Assembly (NCBI RefSeq): GCF_003205575.1
Contig: NZ_PYBW01000095.1
Span: forward strand, 1-64,000
Reading direction: 5' to 3'
DNA length: 64,000 bases
Source: Streptomyces tateyamensis
GTDB lineage: Bacteria > Actinomycetota > Actinomycetes > Streptomycetales > Streptomycetaceae
Shown here in pieces: positions 42,909 to 52,215 of the stretch. The first letter of the stretch is position 1. Every line of letters starts with the position of its first letter. The notes below the pieces were generated by a model, which saw nothing but the letters and a program-made list of their open reading frames with translations, did not search any database and was not told where the DNA came from. Position numbers and translations under genes: made by a program.

Positions 42909-43547
42909 TCACCGCTCCCGCAGCCCCGGGGCGACCTCGCGCAGCCGCGCCGCGCCGATCGCACCGGCGCGCACCAGGACCGGTACCTCGCCCGTGACGT
43001 CCACGATCGAGGAGGGCACCGCTGCCGGGGTCGGGCCGCCGTCCAGGTAGACGGCGACCGCCCCGGCCAGCATCCCCTGGGCCGCGTCGCAGTCCTGCGG
43101 GGACGCCTCGCCGGTCAGGTTGGCGCTGGAGACGGCCAGCGGCCCGGTCGCCGTCAGCAGCTCGACGGCGACCGGGTGGTCGGGCATGCGCACCGCCACC
43201 GTGCCGCCGGTCTCCCCGAGGTCCCAGGAGATCGACGGCTTGTGGCGCAGCACCAGCGTCAGGCCGCCCGGCCAGAAAGCCGCCACCAACTCCCTTGCCA
43301 CTGCCGGGATGTCGTCCGCGAGCGCGTCCAGGTCGGCGGCGGAGCCGACGAGCACCGGCGAGGGCATGTTCCGCCCGCGGCCCTTGGCCGCCAGCAGCCG
43401 GGCCACAGCCTGCGGAGTGAAGGCGTCGGCACCGACGCCGTAAACGGTGTCGGTGGGCAGGACGACCAGCTCACCGCGCCGTACCGCCGCCACCGCCTCC
43501 CGCAGACCCGCTGCATGCTCCTGCGGGTTGGCGCAGTCGAATCGCAC
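42909..43547 (-). CDS. L-threonylcarbamoyladenylate synthase-like (Sua5/YrdC) protein
   Basis: 212 residues. The family motifs are GELVVLPTDTVYGVGADA and KGRGRNMPSPVLV-like, with LAVSSANLTGE and the RMPDHP segment. The usual KxR pair appears in KGRGR. It makes threonylcarbamoyl-AMP for t6A37 of ANN-decoding tRNAs. GTG start with GGAG upstream. It is a short, YrdC-only member. It may be a second copy, since the main Streptomyces gene is in the prmC-atp locus. Confidence 0.88.
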   Translation of the reverse strand: MRFDCANPQEHAAGLREAVAAVRRGELVVLPTDTVYGVGADAFTPQAVARLLAAKGRGRNMPSPVLVGSAADLDALADDIPAVARELVAAFWPGGLTLVLRHKPSISWDLGETGGTVAVRMPDHPVAVELLTATGPLAVSSANLTGEASPQDCDAAQGMLAGAVAVYLDGGPTPAAVPSSIVDVTGEVPVLVRAGAIGAARLREVAPGLRER

Positions 43548-43690: not shown

Positions 43691-43768
43691 TCAGGGTGTC
43701 ACTCGAGAAGTCGGCGCGGCGCCGTCGGACTCGCTGCGAAGAACACAGAATTCATTGCCCTCGGGGTC
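43691..43768 (-). pseudogene. 3' part of a VOC-family gene cut by an integrated element
   Basis: On the minus strand this reads DPEGNEFCVLRSESDGAAPT and ends RVTP and stop at 43691. DPEGNEFC is the well-known end of glyoxalase-fold (VOC) proteins. Its N-terminal part is 8 kb away at 51892-52215. Joined at the shared GACCCC core it gives an in-frame 131-residue gene. Confidence 0.9.
43763..43768. other. Left attachment-site core (GGGGTC, plus strand)
   Basis: The only sequence shared by the two junctions is GGGGTC (GACCCC on the minus strand). To the left it continues as VOC gene 3' sequence; to the right it leads into the element (TCCGGAGACACGG). Confidence 0.85.
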
Positions 43769-43811
43769 TCCGGAGACACGGAACTAGCGGTTCTACGGCA
43801 GGGCCGAGAGA

Positions 43812-43848
43812 GCCCCGCCCGGGTCGGTCCCGGACGGGGCGGGGGGTT
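43812..43848. terminator. Hairpin at the left end of the element
   Basis: GCCCCGCCCGGG pairs with CCCGGACGGGGCGGGG with a small bulge, directly before the stop of the first leftward gene at 43849. It probably ends the leftward transcript. Confidence 0.55.
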
Positions 43849-44070
43849 CTACTGCGCGCGGTGGTGCGGCACTGCCCAGCAGTCACGCGACCAGAACCGG
43901 GTATGCCCGTCAGTCCAGGGGCGGCAGTCGTTCAGCGTCCGAGGGGCATAGCGGACCGCGTAGCGGGCTCCGGCGAGGATCTGCCACCCGTCCCGCTCGC
44001 ACTGCCGCAGACCCCGGGTGTTGCCCCGGCGGGTGCCGTCCGGGAGTCGCTTGATGAACGCGCGGGCCAT
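43849..44070 (-). CDS. Small protein of the integrated element (73 residues)
   Basis: 73 residues, basic N-terminus (MARAFIKRLPDGTRRGNTRG) and a tryptophan/cysteine-rich end (CWAVPHHRAQ). The ATG overlaps the stop of the next gene upstream (TGATG). No family is recognised. Translational coupling with 44070-44402 suggests a functional pair. Confidence 0.5.
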   Translation of the reverse strand: MARAFIKRLPDGTRRGNTRGLRQCERDGWQILAGARYAVRYAPRTLNDCRPWTDGHTRFWSRDCWAVPHHRAQ

Positions 44071-44402
44071 CAGACCAGCACCGCGTCAAGGTAGTGCGCA
44101 CCCGGGTAGGTGTAGCCCGGATCGGGCTGTCCCTCGGCGACCGCCCGCAGAGCCTCGCGCCGCTCATACTGGCGCTCCATCTCGTCCAGCTCGGCCCGCC
44201 ACGCGGCGGGGTCGACGTAGGGGCGGACCAGCGGTCCCCACTCCAACTCTTCGTCAGCGGGCTCCGGCGCGCTCTGGGCGGGGTCGGAGGTGACCGCCAG
44301 GGCGGCGGGCTCCGGCTCGGCTGGGACGGCACGGTGCTGGCCCCGAGCCGGCAGGATCAGGCGCAGGGCGGCCCGTAGGGCACGGGCGATAAGGTGACGC
44401 AT
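44070..44402 (-). CDS. Small protein of the integrated element (110 residues)
   Basis: 110 residues from the ATG at 44402. An N-terminal amphipathic helix (MRHLIARALRAALRLILPARG) is followed by an acidic, proline-rich linker and DPAAWRAELDEMERQYERREALRAV, a likely coiled helix. It is divergent from the GntR gene, as in other actinobacterial integrative elements. No family is recognised. Confidence 0.5.
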   Translation of the reverse strand: MRHLIARALRAALRLILPARGQHRAVPAEPEPAALAVTSDPAQSAPEPADEELEWGPLVRPYVDPAAWRAELDEMERQYERREALRAVAEGQPDPGYTYPGAHYLDAVLV

Positions 44403-44484
44403 GTCGGCAGCTCCCAAATAGCTGTGCGGACACTCGACCCCCGGTGGCCCGGCCAGGCTGCTGGGGGTTCTTTCGTCTTCGACG

Positions 44485-44554
44485 GTAGGGCAACTCCTCT
44501 ACCCTCGTCTACCCACGTTGGCCCATAGCTTGAGATGTGGCCCGTTGTCTACCC
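44485..44554. promoter_or_regulatory. Repeated CTACCC operator motif before the GntR gene
   Basis: The 8-mer GTCTACCC occurs at 44507-44514 and 44547-44554, 40 bp apart; CTACCC occurs again at 44499, and the inverted GTAGGG at 44485. Spacings of 10 and 40 bp are whole helical turns. It is the likely autoregulatory site of the GntR protein and of the divergent small genes. Confidence 0.5.
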
Positions 44555-44561
44555 TTGCCGC

Positions 44562-44816
44562 ATGGCCTCGGAAATCGACTACGACTCGCCCACTCCGCCC
44601 TACCAGCAGATTGCGGCGGAGATCGTCCGCGACATTGATTCCGGAGTCCTCGCGGTGGACCGCCCGATTCCCTCTGAGTCGGCCCTGATTCAGCGGTGGG
44701 GCGTGGCTCGGGACACTGCCCGGCGGGCGGTTCGGCACCTGCGGGAGGGTGGCTACGTCTACACGGTGCCCCAGCGCGGGACCTACGTCGCCAATCGGAG
44801 CGCCGAGAAGCACTGA
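44562..44816 (+). CDS. Short GntR-family regulator
   Basis: 84 residues, essentially only the winged helix-turn-helix: YQQIAAEIVRDIDSGVLAVD and IPSESALIQRWGVARDTARRAVRHLREGGYV. It lacks a large effector domain, as do the short GntR-type repressors (KorSA-like) of actinobacterial integrative elements. It probably represses its own and the divergent promoter and could control element functions or the graspetide genes. Confidence 0.8.
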   Translation: MASEIDYDSPTPPYQQIAAEIVRDIDSGVLAVDRPIPSESALIQRWGVARDTARRAVRHLREGGYVYTVPQRGTYVANRSAEKH

Positions 44817-44852
44817 GCCCCGCCCTGCCGGAGTACACCAGCGAGGCGGGGC
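44817..44852. terminator. Hairpin after the GntR gene
   Basis: GCCCCGCC (44817-44824) and GGCGGGGC (44845-44852) with a 20-base loop, immediately after the stop codon. Confidence 0.5.
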
Positions 44853-44921
44853 CGGGGGTGCGGGAAGGCGTTGGATCGTCGGTTGAAGTCGACGGCCCGC
44901 ACCCGGGTCGGAGCTTACCGC

Positions 44922-44953
44922 GGGGCAACTACTCCCAGGTGAGCCGTTGCCCC
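44922..44953. terminator. Hairpin after the graspetide methyltransferase gene
   Basis: GGGGCAAC (44922-44929) and GTTGCCCC (44946-44953) lie about 35 bases beyond the stop of the leftward methyltransferase gene. Confidence 0.45.
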
Positions 44954-44986
44954 TCGGGGCCGAGGCGCGAAGCGGAGCACGAGAGG

Positions 44987-46165
44987 CTAGGAGAGAGTCC
45001 AGCGGCTGAGCGAACCATCCGGGGCCGCGAACGAGACGCTCTGCTCGTCCGGAGTGGCCTCGATGGTGAGCCACTCGCGGCGGGGGCGGTTGTGGGTACG
45101 CCATTCCGCGTGTGCCGCCTCGATGGTCTTCCAGAGGTCGCGCGGGCCGGTCGTGGTGACAGTGGGCGGCCCGTCAGGCCGGTCCTGCACGGTGGCCGCT
45201 GAGCCGTCCGCCGAATCGTAGAGCGTGGTGCGGTGCTGGCCGCTGATCTGCTGGCCGCGCCGGACGACGGTTGGCGCCATGTGCAGGTGCGCCCAGAACG
45301 TGAATCCGTAGTCATCGAGTACCCGCCCGCTGATCTCCGCCGTGCGCTGTGGCCCGTCGATGCGGTCGGGCATGGCGGACAGTTGCTCGGGGCCGGACTT
45401 TAGCGGCATGAAGGCCGCCGGGGTCGAGATGAACCGACCGACCGCGCGCCCGTCGTCCAGCTTGGTAAGGCAGGCGACCGCGCCACCATCCAACGTGCCC
45501 TTGAGCGGTGCGACGATGACCCCGCCCGGGGAACACTGGTCGAGCCACGCCCGCGGGATACGACGCACGGAACAGGTGGCGATGATCCGATCAAAGGGTG
45601 CGCCGTTAGGGTGACCGGCTGCACCGTCGGCGCGGAGCACAGTTGGTTCGATGCCGTTCTCGCGCAGCCGATTGCGAGCCGCCAAGACAAGAGGGGCCGT
45701 GTAGTCGATGGTGGTCACGTTCTCGGCGCCCGCCAGGAAGGAGAGCAACGCGGCGTTGTAGCCCGTGCCGGTGCCGATTTCTAGGACTCGGTCGCCGGCC
45801 TGCACGTCGAGCGCGTCGAGCATGTCGGCCATGAGGCGCGGCATGGTTGAGGATGACGTTGCCGTGCCGGGCTGTCCGTCGGGGGCGGCATCCTCGGCGA
45901 GAACCCCATCGACTGCGGTGATCAGCGCTTCGTTGGAGTAGACCTGCCGCAGCCACTCGCTGTCGGCCCCGTCGGTGATTCGCCACGGGACGTAGGCGCT
46001 GCCGACGCGTCGATAGAACACCGGGACGAACGGGTGGCGGGGGATGTTCAAGAACGCCTCGGCCACGCGGGAGGACAGAGCGGCGCTGCCACGGTCGATC
46101 TCGGACACAAGCTCGACACGCGCCCGGATCAGTTGTTGCGCATCGAGCAGAACGTCGGACGTCAT
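44987..46165 (-). CDS. tgmC: Graspetide maturation methyltransferase (PIMT-like)
   Basis: 392 residues. It belongs to the protein-L-isoaspartate O-methyltransferase family: the family segment TSSSTMPRLMADML (residues 103-116), the SAM motif VLEIGTGTGYNAA (127-139) and FDRIIATCSVRRIP. A C-terminal extension of about 150 residues goes beyond normal PIMTs and is characteristic of the form encoded with ATP-grasp peptide ligases. In related pathways (fuscimiditide) such an enzyme methylates an aspartate that then cyclises to aspartimide. The ATG overlaps the ATP-grasp stop (ATGA), so the two are coupled. Confidence 0.88.
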   Translation of the reverse strand: MTSDVLLDAQQLIRARVELVSEIDRGSAALSSRVAEAFLNIPRHPFVPVFYRRVGSAYVPWRITDGADSEWLRQVYSNEALITAVDGVLAEDAAPDGQPGTATSSSTMPRLMADMLDALDVQAGDRVLEIGTGTGYNAALLSFLAGAENVTTIDYTAPLVLAARNRLRENGIEPTVLRADGAAGHPNGAPFDRIIATCSVRRIPRAWLDQCSPGGVIVAPLKGTLDGGAVACLTKLDDGRAVGRFISTPAAFMPLKSGPEQLSAMPDRIDGPQRTAEISGRVLDDYGFTFWAHLHMAPTVVRRGQQISGQHRTTLYDSADGSAATVQDRPDGPPTVTTTGPRDLWKTIEAAHAEWRTHNRPRREWLTIEATPDEQSVSFAAPDGSLSRWTLS

Positions 46166-47136
46166 GTAGTGGTGATCCCTTCGAGATGGTCACAGATGGC
46201 GGCGGTAATGGGCAGCCCCGTGGCCTGTTCCACGAAGCCCCATTGCCCGTTTGGGTTGACTTCGAGAAACGTCCACTCACCCGAGGGTGTCACGATGAAG
46301 TCGAACGCACCGAAGGGCAAACCGAGTTGGTCAAGCATCCGTAAGGCGCTGGCAGCCACGTCCCGCGGCGGGTCGCACGTCTTGTAGGTGAGGCTGTCAT
46401 AGTCGCTGCGCCAGTCCACCCGGCCGCTTGCAGAGCCAGCATGAATCTCGGCAGCGAACATCTGGCGCCCGACGACGGTAAGCCGTACCTCATGTGCCTT
46501 GGGTACCCACTCCTGAAACAGATGGGCGGTGGTGGCGACGCTGGGGTGCGGCAGGTCTTCGGGTTGCAGGACATTGGCGTAGACGGCCACCGAGTGGCCC
46601 TCACGAGTGCCCCGGATCGGCGTGAACGGCTTGTAGACCACGGGTGCGCCGCCGAGGCGGTCGGCGAACTCACGTGCTGCGGCCGGGTCATTGGTGATCA
46701 GGGTTCGCGGGACTCTGAGACCGGATTCGGCTGCAACACGCAGTTGAAGCGGCTTGTACTCGGCGTCGGCCGCCCTGCCGGGCGGTGGGAGCCACGGACA
46801 CGGAAGGGCCACCAGAAGACCCCCGAACCCCCGTCGTGCCTCTGCCGCAGCGACGGCGCGGGCCTCGGGCGGCATGGATTCGGGGAACTCGGGTGCAGTC
46901 GGACGCCGGTAGTAGACCGAACGCACAGTCGACAGATCGAGCGTGCGCCGGTCGGTAGTCAGCGTGCCGGACCAGCCGGCCCCGCCGAGACTGGCCGCAA
47001 GGGTCAGCCTCGACGGGAACCAGGCCATGTCAGCCCGGAACACGGGCACGGCACGCCGGGTCAGTTCCTCGATCACCAGGTCGGCCGTTGGGTCGAACGA
47101 CCCGGTGACCACGAGAACAGATCCGGTAGTTGACAT
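46162..47136 (-). CDS. tgmB: ATP-grasp peptide macrocyclase (graspetide ligase)
   Basis: 324 residues, MvdD/TgmB-like ATP-grasp ligase. Lys169 in VYKP, the glutamate/asparagine metal site FLEVNPNGQWG (Glu292, Asn294, Asn296) and the nearby DFIVTPSGEW are visible. It should activate aspartate or glutamate side chains of the precursor and join them to threonine or serine (ester) or lysine (amide). The ATG follows the precursor stop (TAG) with no gap, which ties it to that precursor. Confidence 0.9.
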   Translation of the reverse strand: MSTTGSVLVVTGSFDPTADLVIEELTRRAVPVFRADMAWFPSRLTLAASLGGAGWSGTLTTDRRTLDLSTVRSVYYRRPTAPEFPESMPPEARAVAAAEARRGFGGLLVALPCPWLPPPGRAADAEYKPLQLRVAAESGLRVPRTLITNDPAAAREFADRLGGAPVVYKPFTPIRGTREGHSVAVYANVLQPEDLPHPSVATTAHLFQEWVPKAHEVRLTVVGRQMFAAEIHAGSASGRVDWRSDYDSLTYKTCDPPRDVAASALRMLDQLGLPFGAFDFIVTPSGEWTFLEVNPNGQWGFVEQATGLPITAAICDHLEGITTT

Positions 47137-47460
47137 CTAGTCGTTGCTGCTTCCGGGGTCGTCGGGCGCGTCCATCTGGCCCGTGGGCTGGGTCGGCCCG
47201 TAGGTCTTGGGCGGGGTGCTCGTCATGTAGACCCCGGGCGGCATCCCCTCGTAGGTGCAGGTCTGGGACTCCGGGTCGTACTTGATGTCGGCGGGCAGGA
47301 TGCCACCGGCGCCCGTGACCGGGCGGAGGAACCGGAAGGCGAACGGAGTCGGCCCCTGCATGTTGTCGAGCGCGGGCATCGGGGTCGGCCCGGCCACCGC
47401 GAGGGGCAACCGGGACTCGGGCCGGTCGAACACCGGCAGATCAAGGGTTGCGGCAGGCAT
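47137..47460 (-). CDS. tgmA: Graspetide precursor peptide
   Basis: 107 residues. The leader contains TPFAFRFLRPV (residues 38-48), close to the PFFxRFL motif that ATP-grasp ligases of this class bind. The probable core is residues 76-107 with Thr80, Ser81, Thr82, Thr86, Thr90 and Thr93 as acceptors and Asp97, Asp100, Asp101 and Asp107 as donors. Acceptors lie before the donors, as expected for nested rings. AAAGGGA lies seven bases before the ATG at 47460. An in-frame start at 47523 is possible but has no good ribosome site. Confidence 0.88.
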   Translation of the reverse strand: MPAATLDLPVFDRPESRLPLAVAGPTPMPALDNMQGPTPFAFRFLRPVTGAGGILPADIKYDPESQTCTYEGMPPGVYMTSTPPKTYGPTQPTGQMDAPDDPGSSND

Positions 47461-47495
47461 TGCAGTCCCTTTCTTCGAGGCGTACAGGACGGTAA

Positions 47496-47555
47496 CCCCG
47501 CCCCGGTCGTCCGGGCCGTCCATTTCCCGTCACCGGGGCGGGGGTTGTACAACCC
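47496..47555. promoter_or_regulatory. Hairpin and palindrome upstream of the precursor gene
   Basis: CCCCGCCCCGGT (47496-47507) and ACCGGGGCGGGG (47532-47543) can form a 12-base stem with a 24-base loop, 36 bases before the tgmA start. Overlapping its upstream arm is the perfect palindrome GGGTTGTACAACCC (47542-47555). They may be a terminator/attenuator for the upstream operon and an operator of the graspetide promoter. Confidence 0.5.
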
Positions 47556-47581
47556 GACGCAGCGCAGGGCAACGCCGGGAG

Positions 47582-47941
47582 TCAGGTGGGGTCGGTGTTC
47601 GGGAGGCGAAGCCACGTGGTCCAGGGCGGACGGGGCCCCCTCGGGCGCGCATGGCGGGCTCGCCGGCCCGCATCGGGCTTCCGGATGTCGCGCTCGACCA
47701 CCGCAGCGACAGCCTTACTGTGCAGCGCGGCGATGCACTCGGCACAGGCGTGTAGTGCGGCCGAGATCCCTCCGGCAGCCGTGACCGGACCGAGCCAGAG
47801 CACGCGGACCGAGGTGCGCCCGCAGTAGAGCCAGCAGTCTCCGACCACCCACGCGTTCCCGTCGTCCTGCTCGGGCGGCTCCGGCAGCAGCCCTGACCGG
47901 ATCTCCGCGAGCACCGGAAACGCCTCGGCTGCGAGGGTCAC
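47582..47941 (-). CDS. Small protein of the element with CAEC motif
   Basis: 119 residues starting VTLAAEAFPVLAEIRSGLLP. It contains GDCWLYCG and HACAECIAALHSKAVAAVVERDI, which give four cysteines, then a basic C-terminus. GTG start overlaps the stop of the upstream gene (GTGA). It may bind a metal. No family is recognised; it is the last of four coupled genes before the precursor. Confidence 0.6.
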   Translation of the reverse strand: MTLAAEAFPVLAEIRSGLLPEPPEQDDGNAWVVGDCWLYCGRTSVRVLWLGPVTAAGGISAALHACAECIAALHSKAVAAVVERDIRKPDAGRRARHARPRGPRPPWTTWLRLPNTDPT

Positions 47942-48162
47942 GGTCCCGGGCCGGACACTCGGCGGACCTTGATCCGCAGCCGGGTCCGCTGTTCGATGTG
48001 GTCCGCAACATCCGCACCAACCGGAACCCCACCAAAGAGGGCCAGGACCAGGGCCCACCAGAACACGGCTGGGTCGACCACCAGGGCCGCCCCCGTCGAA
48101 GCGGCGAGGGCGACCAGGCCGACGGCGAGCGACACAGCCGCGCGAATCCGGAAAGCCCTCAC
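47938..48162 (-). CDS. Small two-helix membrane protein
   Basis: 74 residues. Two hydrophobic segments (AVSLAVGLVALAASTGAALVV and FWWALVLALFGGVPVGADV) are followed by a basic tail (RLRIKVRRVSGPGP). GTG start overlaps the upstream stop (GTGA). It may anchor or export something for the cluster, but this is guessed from topology only. Confidence 0.55.
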   Translation of the reverse strand: MRAFRIRAAVSLAVGLVALAASTGAALVVDPAVFWWALVLALFGGVPVGADVADHIEQRTRLRIKVRRVSGPGP

Positions 48163-48530
48163 AGCGGTTCCACCTGCGGCACCATCTCGAACGGCACGTC
48201 AGCAATCAGCCGGTACTTGCGGTGCTTCGAGTCGCTGGCCTGCGTGTGCTTGCGGGTCCACTCGCGGGCGTCGTCCGGGGTGTGAAGCGGACCGGACTCC
48301 CGAGCGCACGGGGAACCGTCGTCGGCCGTCCCCTTACACACCATGACGTAGACCGCCGGGTCGGCCCCGGGCGCGGGGTCCTCTCGATAGGTCCACGTGC
48401 CGAAGCGCGTGACCCGGTCGTCCACCCTCGCGCGAGCGGTCTCGCCACAGTCCGAGTGCGCCGGGAGAACGATCTGCGGTGAGGGCGGGACGATGAGCCT
48501 CGGGGTTCCCGTCGACGTGGTCTCGTTCAT
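48159..48530 (-). CDS. Small protein similar to the DUF7848 type
   Basis: 123 residues. It contains RFGTWTYREDP, VYVMVCKGTADDGSPCARESG and DDAREWTRKHTQASDSKHRKYRLIADVPFEMVP. This order (WTxRED, CxxCG-like cysteines, W-R-HT) recalls a family that is common in actinobacterial integrative elements and RiPP clusters. It probably has a nucleic-acid or protein binding role. The ATG overlaps the upstream stop. Confidence 0.6.
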   Translation of the reverse strand: MNETTSTGTPRLIVPPSPQIVLPAHSDCGETARARVDDRVTRFGTWTYREDPAPGADPAVYVMVCKGTADDGSPCARESGPLHTPDDAREWTRKHTQASDSKHRKYRLIADVPFEMVPQVEPL

Positions 48531-49042
48531 CAGCTCACCCGCTGCACGCTCTGAGCGTTGGCCAATGCGGCCTCGGCCCGGACTCGGTCGGTGGGCTCCG
48601 CGGCGCGCACCTTGAGCGGGTCGGCGAGCCAGTCGTCACAGCTTCCGTGGACCACCGGGGCCAGGACCCAGCGGTCACCCTCGGCCCTGCGGAAGACGCC
48701 CACTTGATCGCGCTCGCCGTCGACCACCAACTGTCCGTCATGCGGAGCCCACATCAGGGAGACCGAGCCAGCAACCGAGTGATCGCCCGTCATGGCGGCT
48801 CCTTCCTCGGCGGCGAGGGCGTCGACCCCGGCACGGATGATCTCGGCGAGCCGGTCGGCGGTCTTCGCCTCGACCATCCCGAGATCCACCCGCGCTACCC
48901 CGGTCGTCGGGTCCACCGGTTCCACGGCGAGATCCGGAAGCGGGCACCTGGCTTCTATAGCCGCTGCGCCGAGATCGGCGCACGCTTCCTCGGCGTGTCT
49001 CTGCTGCTCCCGGTGAAGGCGGGAGAGATGCGACTCAGCCAC
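48530..49042 (-). CDS. Hypothetical protein of the element (170 residues)
   Basis: 170 residues, first gene of the four-gene overlapping unit. The N-terminus is a charged helix (LSRLHREQQRHAEEACADLG) and the rest is acidic without membrane segments. GTG start with GAGGTG five bases upstream. A palindrome is next to this ribosome site. No family is recognised. Confidence 0.55.
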   Translation of the reverse strand: MAESHLSRLHREQQRHAEEACADLGAAAIEARCPLPDLAVEPVDPTTGVARVDLGMVEAKTADRLAEIIRAGVDALAAEEGAAMTGDHSVAGSVSLMWAPHDGQLVVDGERDQVGVFRRAEGDRWVLAPVVHGSCDDWLADPLKVRAAEPTDRVRAEAALANAQSVQRVS

Positions 49043-49050
49043 GGTGGCAC

Positions 49051-49066
49051 CTCACGTCTTCGTGAG
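49051..49066. promoter_or_regulatory. Palindrome CTCACG-TCTT-CGTGAG
   Basis: The 16-bp palindrome overlaps the ribosome site of the leftward 170-residue gene and lies in the divergent region before the NUDIX gene. It can be an operator or an RNA hairpin that hides the ribosome site. Confidence 0.45.
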
Positions 49067-49151
49067 TATCTGGCACGCTTCGATGATGCACGCCGAACAC
49101 GGGCGTTGCTGCTTGCCGACATCATGCCGCAGCAAAGGGGAGGAACCGGCC

Positions 49152-49682
49152 TTGAGGACACCGCCCACACCTGACGACCCGGAAGCATGGAACGCCTACC
49201 TAGCCGAGGGCAACGCCAAGCAGGCGCGCAAACGAGTTGCGGTCGATCTGATCATCCGTGACCAGGACGGCCGTGTGCTTGTCGTCAACCCCAGCTACAA
49301 ACCTGACTGGGACCTGCCGGGCGGCATGGTCGAAGCCAACGAATCCCCCGAGGACGCAGGCCGACGGGAGATCCGCGAGGAACTGGGACTACAGCTCACG
49401 CCCGGTCGGCTGCTGGTGGTCGAGTGGGTTCCGCCCCACGGCCCGTGGGATGATCAGCTCGCTTTCATCCTTGACGGCGGCGAGCTGTCCGCCGAGCAGT
49501 CAGCCGAACTCAGGCCGCACGACGGTGAGCTGTCAGAGCTAGCGATGATGGACCCGGCCGACGCCCGCCCGCTGCTCCGCCCTCGCTTGCACCCCCGCTA
49601 TGACGCTGCCCTCGCGGCATTGGCCGACGGTCACGCTCGATACCTGAGCCCGAATCCACCGGCTGATGATTTCCGGGCCTGA
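49152..49682 (+). CDS. NUDIX hydrolase, 3' end replaced by insertion sequence
   Basis: 176 residues. The NUDIX box GGMVEANESPEDAGRREIREELGL is complete, so the active site should work. TTG start with GGGGAGGA upstream. The last 12 codons (from about 49644) lie in the inverted repeat of the IS1380-type element, so the native C-terminus was probably lost. It is divergent from the element's leftward operon. Confidence 0.8.
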   Translation: MRTPPTPDDPEAWNAYLAEGNAKQARKRVAVDLIIRDQDGRVLVVNPSYKPDWDLPGGMVEANESPEDAGRREIREELGLQLTPGRLLVVEWVPPHGPWDDQLAFILDGGELSAEQSAELRPHDGELSELAMMDPADARPLLRPRLHPRYDAALAALADGHARYLSPNPPADDFRA

Positions 49683-51374
49683 TCCCTCCCCGTCGCCGGT
49701 TGGCCGGGTGGGGCATGGGTTTGAGGGTGTGCGGTGCCCGCCGCGTGCGGGTCGCGGCCTGTCCGTGGTCTCCGGGGCGGGGGGTGGGTGGTGGCAGCGG
49801 GGTGCCGGTGGCCGGTCGGGGCCGTGGGGGTGGGGAGCGTCCGGGAGCGGTCAGGTCACGGGTGTGGGTGGGCGGTGGGCGGCTTCGAAGAGGTCGGTGA
49901 AGGCGTCTTGCCAGGGCCAGTGCTCGGGTAGATGCACCGTCAGTTTCGTGCGGGCGGTGCGGGCCAGGCGGGCGGGGACGTTCACCAGGTGGGCGCGCAG
50001 GGTGGCGGTGGTGGCCTTGGCGTGGAAGACGGAGGCCAGGGCTCCGGCGGCCCGCAGCAGGTTGTGGGACATTGCCCACAGGGTCAGCCAGGCGGCGTTG
50101 GCCTGGAAGTTCCCCGATGGCAGGTGGGCCAGCGGGCCGGACTTTCCGTCTGCGATGGCCTGCTCGACCACGGCGTGCCGCCGGTGGTGCAGTTCGGCCT
50201 GCAGCATCGCGAACGGGCTGTCGGTGAAGACGGGGTGGTAGCGCCAGGTGGTGAACAACTCGCCCTGTCCCTGGGCTGCTTCGGGGTTCAGTCGGCGCAC
50301 CCGGCGCACGATCAGGCGGGCGGTGACCTGCTCGGCCTTCCTCCTCCCGGTGAAGGCGGTGTATTCGATCTCGGCGATCTCGGCGTCGGAGACCATCTCG
50401 CCGGTGTCCGGGTCGACGAAGGCGTCCGGGTAGCGGATCGGCGTCCAGGCGTCCTGGGGGATGTGGCCGATCGCCTTGGCGATGGAGGGGTTCATGCCGG
50501 TGGTCAAGGAGAAGCGGGCGCCGGCCCGGCGGCAGGCGGCGACCACGTCGGCGGTGTAGAACTTGCTGTCCGCGCGCACGATCCGCACTCCGGTGCCGCC
50601 CGCCTCCTTCGCGATCGCGAGGGCCTCGCCCACGAAGCTTTCGGTGCCGCGGACGTCGGCGGCCTTGCCGCGGCGCAGGCGGACCGCGCCGATCACGGGC
50701 CGGGCGGTGGGGGTGGACAGGGTGGCCAGGATCGGGTGCAGGGTGCGCTGGCCCTTGAGGCGGCCGACCTCGGCGCCCTGCTTGGCGTGGCCGTAGACGC
50801 GGCGATGGGTGGGGTCGATGTCGATGAACATCAGCGTCTCGGCGCCGGGCAGCAGCGGGGTTTGCCGGGCCAGTGATGCGAGGAAGTCGCGGTGGACGCG
50901 GTGGAGTTGGCGGTTGTGGCCGTGCGTAAAGGAGCGCAGGAAGGTGCCCAGGGTGGAGGGCGCGCGCACCCCGGCGAAGGCACGGTCCATCGCGCCGTGC
51001 CGCAGCCGGGCCGCGTCGTCGATGGAGTCGGCCCCGGCGCACATCGCGCCGAGCAGGGACATCACCTTGTTGGCCGGGTGGGCGCCGCCGCTGTTGTCGG
51101 CGCCCTCGATCCGTATGGCGGAGGCGGCCAGCTCGGGCAGACCGGCCCGCTCGGCCAGCCGGACCAGCGGCAGCAGCCCGGCGTCGGCGATCAGGTTCGG
51201 CTCGTCGAAGACGGCGGAGACCGCGGTGGCGGCAGGGCAGGATTGCATCTCGCGGATGTTCTCTCGATCTGGCGACCTGGTTCTGTAGGAAGTCCCATCG
51301 TCCCAGGTCAGAGGGCATCCGCGCCCTCACGTCCAGGTCCCGGACAGATCATTCATCGGTGGATCGGGGCTGAG
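49644..51374. mobile_element. IS1380-family insertion sequence
   Basis: The ends are imperfect inverted repeats: 49644-49661 and 51357-51374 match at 15 of 18 outer positions (CTGAGCCCGAATCCACCG against CTCAGCCCCGATCCACCG), and similarity continues inward (ATGAT, TCCGGG). One transposase gene lies between them. There is no matching 4-bp target duplication, which suggests that DNA on one side was deleted after insertion; the missing part of the integrase agrees. Exact ends are uncertain by several bases. Confidence 0.7.
49851..51248 (-). CDS. IS1380-family DDE transposase
   Basis: 465 residues. DDE signature parts include FIDIDPTHRRVYG (first Asp), RADSKFY (second Asp) and a late glutamate in the HHRRHAVVEQAIADGK region. 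The pattern is that of IS1380-type transposases. The gene appears intact. It runs leftward, in the same direction as the truncated integrase and the graspetide operon. Confidence 0.92.
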   Translation of the reverse strand: MQSCPAATAVSAVFDEPNLIADAGLLPLVRLAERAGLPELAASAIRIEGADNSGGAHPANKVMSLLGAMCAGADSIDDAARLRHGAMDRAFAGVRAPSTLGTFLRSFTHGHNRQLHRVHRDFLASLARQTPLLPGAETLMFIDIDPTHRRVYGHAKQGAEVGRLKGQRTLHPILATLSTPTARPVIGAVRLRRGKAADVRGTESFVGEALAIAKEAGGTGVRIVRADSKFYTADVVAACRRAGARFSLTTGMNPSIAKAIGHIPQDAWTPIRYPDAFVDPDTGEMVSDAEIAEIEYTAFTGRRKAEQVTARLIVRRVRRLNPEAAQGQGELFTTWRYHPVFTDSPFAMLQAELHHRRHAVVEQAIADGKSGPLAHLPSGNFQANAAWLTLWAMSHNLLRAAGALASVFHAKATTATLRAHLVNVPARLARTARTKLTVHLPEHWPWQDAFTDLFEAAHRPPTPVT

Positions 51375-51856
51375 TGACGGGCACCCGATCTACTGAGCGT
51401 CGGAGCCACCCGGGGCCCCTCCATCCCTGCGAACACCAGCACCTTTCGGTGCTCCCTCGCCCACTTGGCGAGTTCGTGCATGTGCCCCATGGATCGGATG
51501 GCACGGTCGAAGCGCCACCACACAAGGGCGTCGAAGCTGTCGGGGTCCGCGATCCAGCGGCCGAGCTCCGGACGTTCCCACGGAGCTGTCTTGCTCGCCG
51601 ACACGTCAAGGTCGACGGCTTCGCGGCGCTGGTCACCCTCGCCGAAGTCGATGTTCAAAGCCGCGGCGGCGGTCTCGTTGGACTCGCGCTGTCGCTCGGG
51701 GCTGGTGGTCTCGTCCGTCAGCACGGACAGGCGGATAGCCGAGACGCCCCGCAGGCGCCCGGAGAACACGGTGCCCTCGGTACCGGGCAGGGTCGTCCTA
51801 CCCTCCGGGGAGGGGGGCGAATTCCGCAGGTCACGGGTAATGGTGGCGGTCGACAC
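51353..51856 (-). pseudogene. Serine integrase, N-terminal fragment
   Basis: Only about 145 residues of the resolvase domain remain: RLRGVSAIRLSVLTDETTSPERQRE with catalytic Ser44 and arginines 42, 55 and 57, then FDALVWWRFDRAIRSMGHMHELAKWA and VLVFAGMEG. After about GMEGPRV the reading runs into insertion-sequence DNA and stops at 51353. The long C-terminal DNA-binding part of a large serine recombinase is missing, so this protein cannot act. GTG start 35 bp from the right attachment core. Confidence 0.85.
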
Positions 51857-51891
51857 CGGTGGTCACTCCAGAACTGGTAGTCCGGAGTGTT

Positions 51892-51897
51892 GGGGTC
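51892..51897. other. Right attachment-site core (GGGGTC, plus strand)
   Basis: Same six bases as at 43763. On its right the VOC 5' part begins (CTCGCC GACCCC on the minus strand); on its left is element DNA (TCCGGAGTGTT). Confidence 0.85.
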
Positions 51898-52215
51898 GGC
51901 GAGGACGGCCCAGCCCGTGCCGTCGGATTCCCGGCGATCGGCGACGAAGGCGGCACCGAGGCCCAGCAGCCGCTCGACCTCCTCCTCGCGCGAGGTCTTC
52001 GGGCGCAGGCACAGATGGATCCGGTTCTTGACCGTCTTCGGCTCCGGCACCTGGTTGAAGTGCAGCAGCGGGCCCTCCGGCAGCATCACGTCAACCTCCG
52101 GATCGCCCGGCCTGTCCGCCGGATGCAGCGGGCAACCGGTCACCTCGCTCCAGAACCGTGCCAGCTCATAGGCATCCGCACAGTCGATCGCCACGTTCTG
52201 CACCACCGAGACCAT
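51892..52215 (-). pseudogene. 5' part of the interrupted VOC-family gene
   Basis: 108 codons from the ATG at 52215: MVSVVQNVAIDCADAYELARFWSEV to GTGWAVLADP. The glyoxalase-fold metal and ligand motifs are typical (AIDCADAYELARFW). Translation runs into the element and would give a chimeric tail of RCRPPPLP-type sequence to a stop at 51718. The true end is at 43691-43768. Confidence 0.9.

Follow-up and report, generated by a model that had tools for sequence, protein, structure and literature searches.

What does the three-gene cassette on the minus strand of a Streptomyces tateyamensis contig (NZ_PYBW01000095.1) make, and how did it come to lie where it does? The cassette, at 47460–44987 of the 64,000-nucleotide stretch that we analysed (the window), encodes a graspetide precursor, a TgmB-type ATP-grasp ligase, and a PIMT-like methyltransferase. 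Our best explanation, which we consider probable, is that a group 13 graspetide cassette rides as cargo on an integrative element at the 3′ end of a VOC gene, and that its product would receive three esters and then be methylated in the stem.

We began with the genes themselves. The precursor gene, tgmA (107 residues; 47137..47460, minus strand; ATG at 47460, stop at 47139–47137), has homologous tails elsewhere and is preceded by AAAGGGA, a ribosome-site-like stretch. It abuts tgmB with no gap (ATP-grasp ligase, 324 residues; 46162..47136, minus strand; ATG at 47136, stop codon ending at 46162), and tgmB shares a 4-bp ATGA overlap with tgmC (PIMT-like O-methyltransferase with an extra C-terminal domain, 392 residues; 44987..46165, minus strand; ATG at 46165). 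An initial annotation, made from the letters alone, had described this order and these junctions, and the open reading frame coordinates bear it out. The PFxxRFL leader that it reported is present as PFAFRFL at residues 39–45 (47326..47346, minus strand); across a 13-row alignment P39, A41, F42, F44, and L45 are invariant and R43 is nearly so.

Curated models and a fold match likewise support the class and gene roles that the annotation assigned. The ligase scores 408.4 bits against TIGR04187 (cut-off 350), and its best PDB matches include AMdnB and CdnC chains. The methyltransferase scores 112 bits against Pfam PCMT (cut-off 20.3), and the top fold match of its structure model (mean predicted local distance difference test score, pLDDT, 87) is the Thermotoga maritima PIMT 1DL5, aligned over 385 columns and therefore including the extra C-terminal domain. 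Such a domain is common to PIMTs linked to ribosomally synthesized and post-translationally modified peptides (PMC10787088, available in part). PIMT-linked clusters are termed group 13 graspetides, with four products characterised, in a review available in part (PMC13001092), and we regard membership of the cassette in this class as almost certain. Two scores weigh against it: the methyltransferase reaches 338.5 bits against TIGR04188, under the cut-off of 380, and the precursor just 16.1 bits against TIGR04186, under the cut-off of 25. The precursor has no Pfam match, and a PDB search with the whole precursor returned chance matches to monobody/adnectin chains only (E ≥ 0.5), which we discarded.

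As a class, the cassette is ordinary, since its ligase family is common: TgmB-type ligases exceed the cut-off in 84 of 150 Streptomycetaceae genomes, the source genome included, and a ligase-like place spanning at least 80% of the ligase occurs in 55 of 72,556 plasmid records. The source genome (G000) carries a second TgmB-type ligase, 50% identical, on contig C429 (4375–5301), and therefore probably a second graspetide cluster. A putative viral contig of 59.5 kb from IMG/VR (L111) also encodes a TgmB-type ligase (48%) together with a PIMT homologue.

To what, then, does the core of this precursor belong? Its Thr residues lie at positions 80, 82, 86, 90, and 93 and its Asp residues at 97, 100, 101, and 107. 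The annotation had drawn the core as Thr80–Thr93 followed by Asp97–Asp107; these residues are present, and T80, T86, T90, D97, D100, D101, and D107 are invariant among 13 aligned precursors, but T82 and T93 vary. The core is that of a conserved subfamily and not a one-off. With small variations the subfamily reads MT-x-x-PPKTYGPT-x-P-x-G-x-MDAPDDPG-x-S-x-D, in 28 distinct tails from 45 loci, several of which are one place taken from two collections. The invariance across 13 rows and the 28 homologous tails argue that the precursor is more than a chance open reading frame. In a quick tree the subfamily ligases form a single branch of 24 rows among 153 (support 100); at one of these loci, L039, the precursor is lost to a contig end. 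A subfamily profile matched 17 of 394 genomes of the family, the source genome included, and among 396 genomes of the phylum the source genome was the sole match.

The same evidence splits the annotation's suggestion of a new product. All four characterised products carry Gly after the methylated Asp (PMC13001092, in part) and the window core has no Asp-Gly, so it cannot be any of them; the amycolimiditide and albusimiditide cores were set apart by this description (Asp then Gly), not by sequence. Novelty in the stricter sense did not hold, as the subfamily shares this type of core and another genome of the genus (G051, locus L003) encodes exactly the same one. The strings DAPDDPG, KTYGPT, and PPKTYG gave no match in a literature text search whose coverage leaves out many graspetide papers.

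We next considered how the core might be cross-linked. Fuscimiditide, the product of ThfABM from Thermobifida fusca, is made like the window product by a precursor, one ATP-grasp ligase, and one PIMT homologue, and its nested Thr–Asp esters, T3–D22 and T7–D18, pair in mirror symmetry with i,i+4 spacing on both arms (PMC12291112, in part). We scanned 124 distinct precursor ends from 149 loci for ladders of this kind, pairing Thr with Asp at steps of 2–7 around loops of 4–14, thereby repeating without hand-picking an earlier test that had used 29 outside cores chosen by hand. The window core (T80–D107; 47140..47223, minus strand) yields a mirror-symmetric ladder of T80/T86/T90 against D97/D101/D107, with steps of 6 and 4, that engages each of the three invariant Thr and, of the four invariant Asp, leaves only D100 over. 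On this pattern we think it probable that the esters are T90–D97, T86–D101, and T80–D107.

The predicted ladder sets the subfamily apart from other PIMT-linked precursors. Outside the subfamily, 68 of 84 PIMT-linked ends give a ladder, with an Asp in the loop of every best ladder in 61 of the 68, of some in 6, and of none in 1. Within it, all 16 members with a methyltransferase give a three-step ladder and none has a loop Asp (0/16), the loop reading QP[ST]G[QE]M or similar. L041 has a loop of 10 residues instead of 6 with unchanged stem spacing; the additional residues are accommodated between T90 and D97, which supports the placement of the loop, and the further ladders that it allows are likewise Asp-free there. 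One row matched by the string DDPG has neither a ladder nor a methyltransferase. The analogy to fuscimiditide that the annotation drew, of ester rings followed by an aspartimide, is weakened, as the best window ladder leaves the loop without Asp. Fuscimiditide itself has two esters, a 10-residue loop (PMC12291112, in part), and a loop aspartimide (PMC13003496, in part), as against the predicted 6-4 ladder and 6-residue, Asp-free loop of the window.

With the predicted loop Asp-free and three Asp paired in the ladder, D100 in the stem becomes the candidate site of methylation and aspartimide formation, an assignment that we hold tentatively, at slightly under even odds. Several observations count against the ladder or this site. 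No ladder was found in 16 of the 84 outside PIMT-linked precursors. Arm-wise shuffles gave a three-step ladder in 929 of 5000 trials for the window core and 270 of 5000 for the consensus core, so the pairing by itself is weak evidence. A two-ester pairing (T86–D101, T80–D107) would place D97 in a 14-residue loop, and loops of 12–14 residues do occur among the other predicted ladders. In all graspimiditides characterised, methylation falls on a loop Asp, and the available part of the review (PMC13001092) offers no precedent for a stem site. Finally, at one subfamily locus, from Embleya scabrispora (L050), the precursor is accompanied by a ligase match extending only to residue 265, and the DNA examined contains no methyltransferase gene. 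That strain also has a fuller copy of the locus, L055.

These points feed two alternative accounts of the product, which overlap with each other and with our preferred reading, as does the account of the setting weighed further below; the weights given to them do not sum to one with it. One keeps the cassette and element and lets the precursor carry only the two esters T86–D101 and T80–D107, or pairs T90 with either D100 or D101. In each case D97 would sit in the loop and be methylated there, which would make the product an ordinary graspimiditide in this respect. We consider this possible though rather unlikely. The 12–14-residue loops just mentioned would accommodate it, and D97 is invariant; yet it either leaves the invariant T90 unpaired or departs from the mirror-symmetric spacing that fuscimiditide and the predicted ladders show. 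Moreover, the residue after D97 is Ala, outside the n+1 residues given in the available part of the review (PMC13001092), as is the Asp that follows D100.

The second account holds that the subfamily methyltransferase no longer makes aspartimide and has been kept for another step or another substrate. Consistent with this, the loop Asp is missing from all 16 cores, L050 does without the gene, and a putative recognition motif has changed: where WxxxGxP is expected in the C-terminal domain, the window enzyme has WRTHNRP, keeping W and P with Asn for Gly, and the glycine is Asn or His in all 24 subfamily enzymes counted (L039 and L100 added by hand), versus Gly in 56 of 67 outside enzymes with the pattern. 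However, the GxGxG S-adenosylmethionine-site pattern is present in every subfamily enzyme and the gene in 25 of 27 subfamily loci, one of the other two being L050 and the second, L051, ending inside the ligase. In addition, three outside enzymes with Asn at this position (L096, L104, L185) accompany ordinary loop-Asp ladders, which led us to reject the glycine change as a strict marker of the subfamily, and 24 of 91 outside enzymes lack WxxxGxP altogether. We therefore judge a changed role for the enzyme improbable.

Under the preferred reading, of three esters followed by stem methylation, the ligase would bind the PFAFRFL leader, activate Asp side chains with ATP, and join them to Thr hydroxyls. 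The nested esters would most likely form in the order T90–D97, T86–D101, T80–D107, with a loss of about 54 Da. The PIMT-like enzyme would then methylate one remaining Asp of the cyclised peptide, D100 being the leading candidate, and the methylated Asp would close to an aspartimide (a further −18 Da), which may open to isoaspartate.

Other PIMT-linked systems share this logic in part, as far as the available text of their reports goes. Amycolimiditide (AmdABM) and albusimiditide belong to the same class as the window cassette, and the four esters of amycolimiditide form from the loop outward (PMC13003496); unlike the site predicted here, their modified Asp lies in the loop and is followed by Gly (PMC13001092). 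SsfA(BM) from Streptomyces sp. F-3 follows the same three-gene logic, and its methyltransferase requires the fully cyclised peptide (PMC10787088); it differs from the window product in that its modified Asp81 precedes Gly82 and in its five esters, one of them proposed to involve the C-terminus. Imiditides and type I pamtides employ a PIMT homologue of the same family but, unlike the window cassette, have no ATP-grasp enzyme and a linear substrate.

How did the cassette reach this position? The annotation had placed it on a mobile element, and the split target gene and element ends agree. In the window, a VOC (glyoxalase-fold) gene is split into two parts that lie 8.1 kb from each other, and each junction carries GGGGTC. 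Its 5′ part (51892..52215, minus strand; Glyoxalase_6, PF18029) has intact orthologues in the genus, and the 19 orthologues listed read on as ...ADPE(G/L)NEFCVLRS. The severed 3′ tail, DPEGNEFCVLRSESD (43712..43768, minus strand), matches intact VOC 3′ ends at 85–91% in the five loci listed. Homology of the tail ends at 43768, and the GGGGTC cores occupy 43763..43768 at the left end and 51892..51897 at the right, where the repeat matches the left; we accordingly bound the element at about 43769–51897, some 8.1 kb. Next to the right end lies a serine integrase (PF00239; 51353..51769, minus strand; 84% identical to that of locus L206), present as an N-terminal fragment only. Its full-length relatives have open frames of about 560–640 codons, and an IS1380-family transposase (NF033539, 284 bits; 49851..51248, minus strand) occupies the place expected for the remainder of the integrase. 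From these genes and ends, the cassette very probably sits in an integrative element of the serine-integrase type. Integrase, att repeats, and a GntR regulator, all features of the window element, are also those of actinomycete integrative elements and of capsid-encoding phage satellites. The window element differs from such satellites in its fragmentary integrase and in that no head or packaging gene was recognised in it: among the element open reading frames tested against Pfam and NCBIfam, none was recognised as a capsid, terminase, or transfer gene.

We then asked whether related elements carry related cargo. Integrase matches of at least 48% identity occur at 17 sites elsewhere in the genus, in genomes many of which are drafts; we examined 15 (L206–L220) and left out two fragments (42 residues in G051, 53 residues in G028). 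Across the family, the integrase is found in 16 of 150 genomes. In five of the 15 loci (L206–L210) genes for all three cassette proteins fall within about 9 kb, against roughly 0.04 cases of integrase–ligase proximity expected by chance (by hand, from 17 ligase matches × 18 kb in 8.5 Mb). The sister cassettes represent at least two other graspetide clades: those of L206 and L210 are of the STNTSTPT...GGGDGQ type, and those of L207–L209 of the HGTSV(N/G)TYP(P/T)T...GKDGK type. L215 has a broken methyltransferase, and in L212 and L219 a methyltransferase adjoins a small Gly/Lys/Asp-rich, imiditide-like open reading frame. In L220 (2401–4549) a radical SAM/SPASM gene lies beside a PIMT homologue near the related integrase, with no precursor identified. 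Six of the 15 loci have no precursor, ligase, or methyltransferase, one being cut by a contig end. The imiditide-like cassettes lie at L212:9129–10457 and L219:15555–16877, and their small open reading frames have no NCBIfam match; L219 additionally carries a gene for a phage major head protein.

Comparison of the window with L206 reveals a mosaic. The element genes agree closely (integrase 84%, GntR 91%, the end genes h73 85% and h110 66%), but within the cassette TgmB is 42% and TgmC 38% identical, and TgmA has no match. Conversely, in G051 and G058 the cassette is close (TgmA 83/75%, TgmB 83/84%, TgmC 73/79%) and the element genes find no match at all. At the DNA level, flank homology to L206 stops at 44854 and resumes at 47496–47582 and 51429–51975, and cassette homology spans 44992–47433 (L113) and 45063–47473 (L112); the mosaic boundary therefore encloses just the three genes. 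Hence the cassette appears exchangeable, and we infer, with good though not full confidence, that the tgmA–tgmB–tgmC block is a module that can be swapped between the GntR and end-gene side and the integrase side.

Several findings detract from this picture. The L208 ligase (genome G011) contains a stop codon. The integrase frame is uninterrupted in only L206 and L207 of the five three-gene sister loci, and in the window only a fragment is present, so that this copy is unlikely to move. None of eight integrase places listed from outside the genus shares a contig with a TgmB place, among the TgmB matches listed. One could accordingly argue, with regard to the setting only, that there is no recombinase element with a cargo slot and that graspetide genes were replaced by ordinary recombination in an old chromosomal neighbourhood. 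The window's integrase fragment and the interrupted integrases of three of the five sister loci fit such a history, as do the closest cassettes (G051, G058, G065), which occupy settings without element genes. Set against it are the split VOC gene with its matching core repeats and the integrase next to one end; moreover, by pattern the same pair of ends recurs in L207, L208, L209, and L215, and intact VOC genes are found elsewhere. The end pattern is incomplete or absent in other loci, with one of two ends in L210, the tail only in L219, and neither in L206 or L214. On balance we find the old-neighbourhood account very unlikely.

Returning to the integrative element, we asked to what it may be related. 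Among ten proteins searched, phage head, portal, or terminase genes were found near the related integrase in L210, L213, L214, L216, L217, and L219, so the element family may be phage-satellite-like. A fuller statement would be that VOC-targeting serine-integrase elements of the genus, akin to carriers of head genes, hold a fixed slot in which PIMT-dependent cassettes are swapped (at least three graspetide clades, with imiditide-like ones near the same integrase), and that the window product bears an aspartimide or isoaspartate in the stem at D100, the methyltransferase motif having changed in step. Taken as a whole, this remains speculative, and we put it at about one chance in three. Literature titles and abstracts, whose coverage is incomplete so that a prior sighting is possible, described no graspetide cargo on integrative elements or phage satellites.

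The review (PMC13001092, in part) counts the function of aspartimidylated graspetides among the open questions. That cassettes of different clades occupy one slot of a selfish DNA element suggests a role for the peptides in competition, on behalf of the element or of its host, and the matched sister elements offer a natural set for testing that role. The loop-Asp-less subfamily, in turn, provides a sharp test of the rule that graspetide methyltransferases modify a loop Asp, and could yield graspetide scaffolds in which the electrophile is placed differently.

The remaining element genes lie on both sides of the cassette. On the left, the end open reading frames h73 (43849..44070, minus strand; 85% in L206, 81% in L215) and h110 (44070..44402, minus strand; 66% in L206, 63% in L210) precede the GntR-family regulator (PF00392; 44535..44816, plus strand; 91% identical in L206). 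Upstream of tgmA, at the cassette edge, a GC-rich inverted repeat (47496..47545, minus strand) is conserved in L206–L209 and L222; it folds, with z against shuffles of only −1.1 in the window, −2.7 in L206, and −3.3 in L207. Beyond it are an open reading frame for a CWLYC protein (47582..47914, minus strand; 59–66% identical in L207, L208, and L209), a DUF7848 protein (PF25232; 48159..48530, minus strand), a hypothetical open reading frame with no Pfam or NCBIfam match (48530..49042, minus strand), and a NUDIX hydrolase (PF00293; 49044..49682, plus strand; 88% in L210, 78% in L222). The 64-kb window contains no tRNA. A 12-bp palindrome upstream of the precursor, GGTTGTACAACC, was considered as an operator and dropped, its centre TTGTACAA recurring in no other locus searched. 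An empty-site test by way of the YrdC and glutamine-amidotransferase genes was abandoned, as these are not neighbours in the relatives' places listed.

Three smaller observations concern the surroundings. A second YrdC/Sua5 paralogue lies at 42909–43547 of the window; the other copy, on contig C258, is 65% identical and of the kind found throughout the genus. Contig C53 of the source genome (1599–1832; L221) encodes another stretch of the integrase N-terminus, 78 residues long and 99% identical. Finally, the Rfam family Ms_IGR-7 matches at 51251–51368 (50.1 bits), at the right end of the IS1380 copy, and may in part describe insertion-sequence end sequence.

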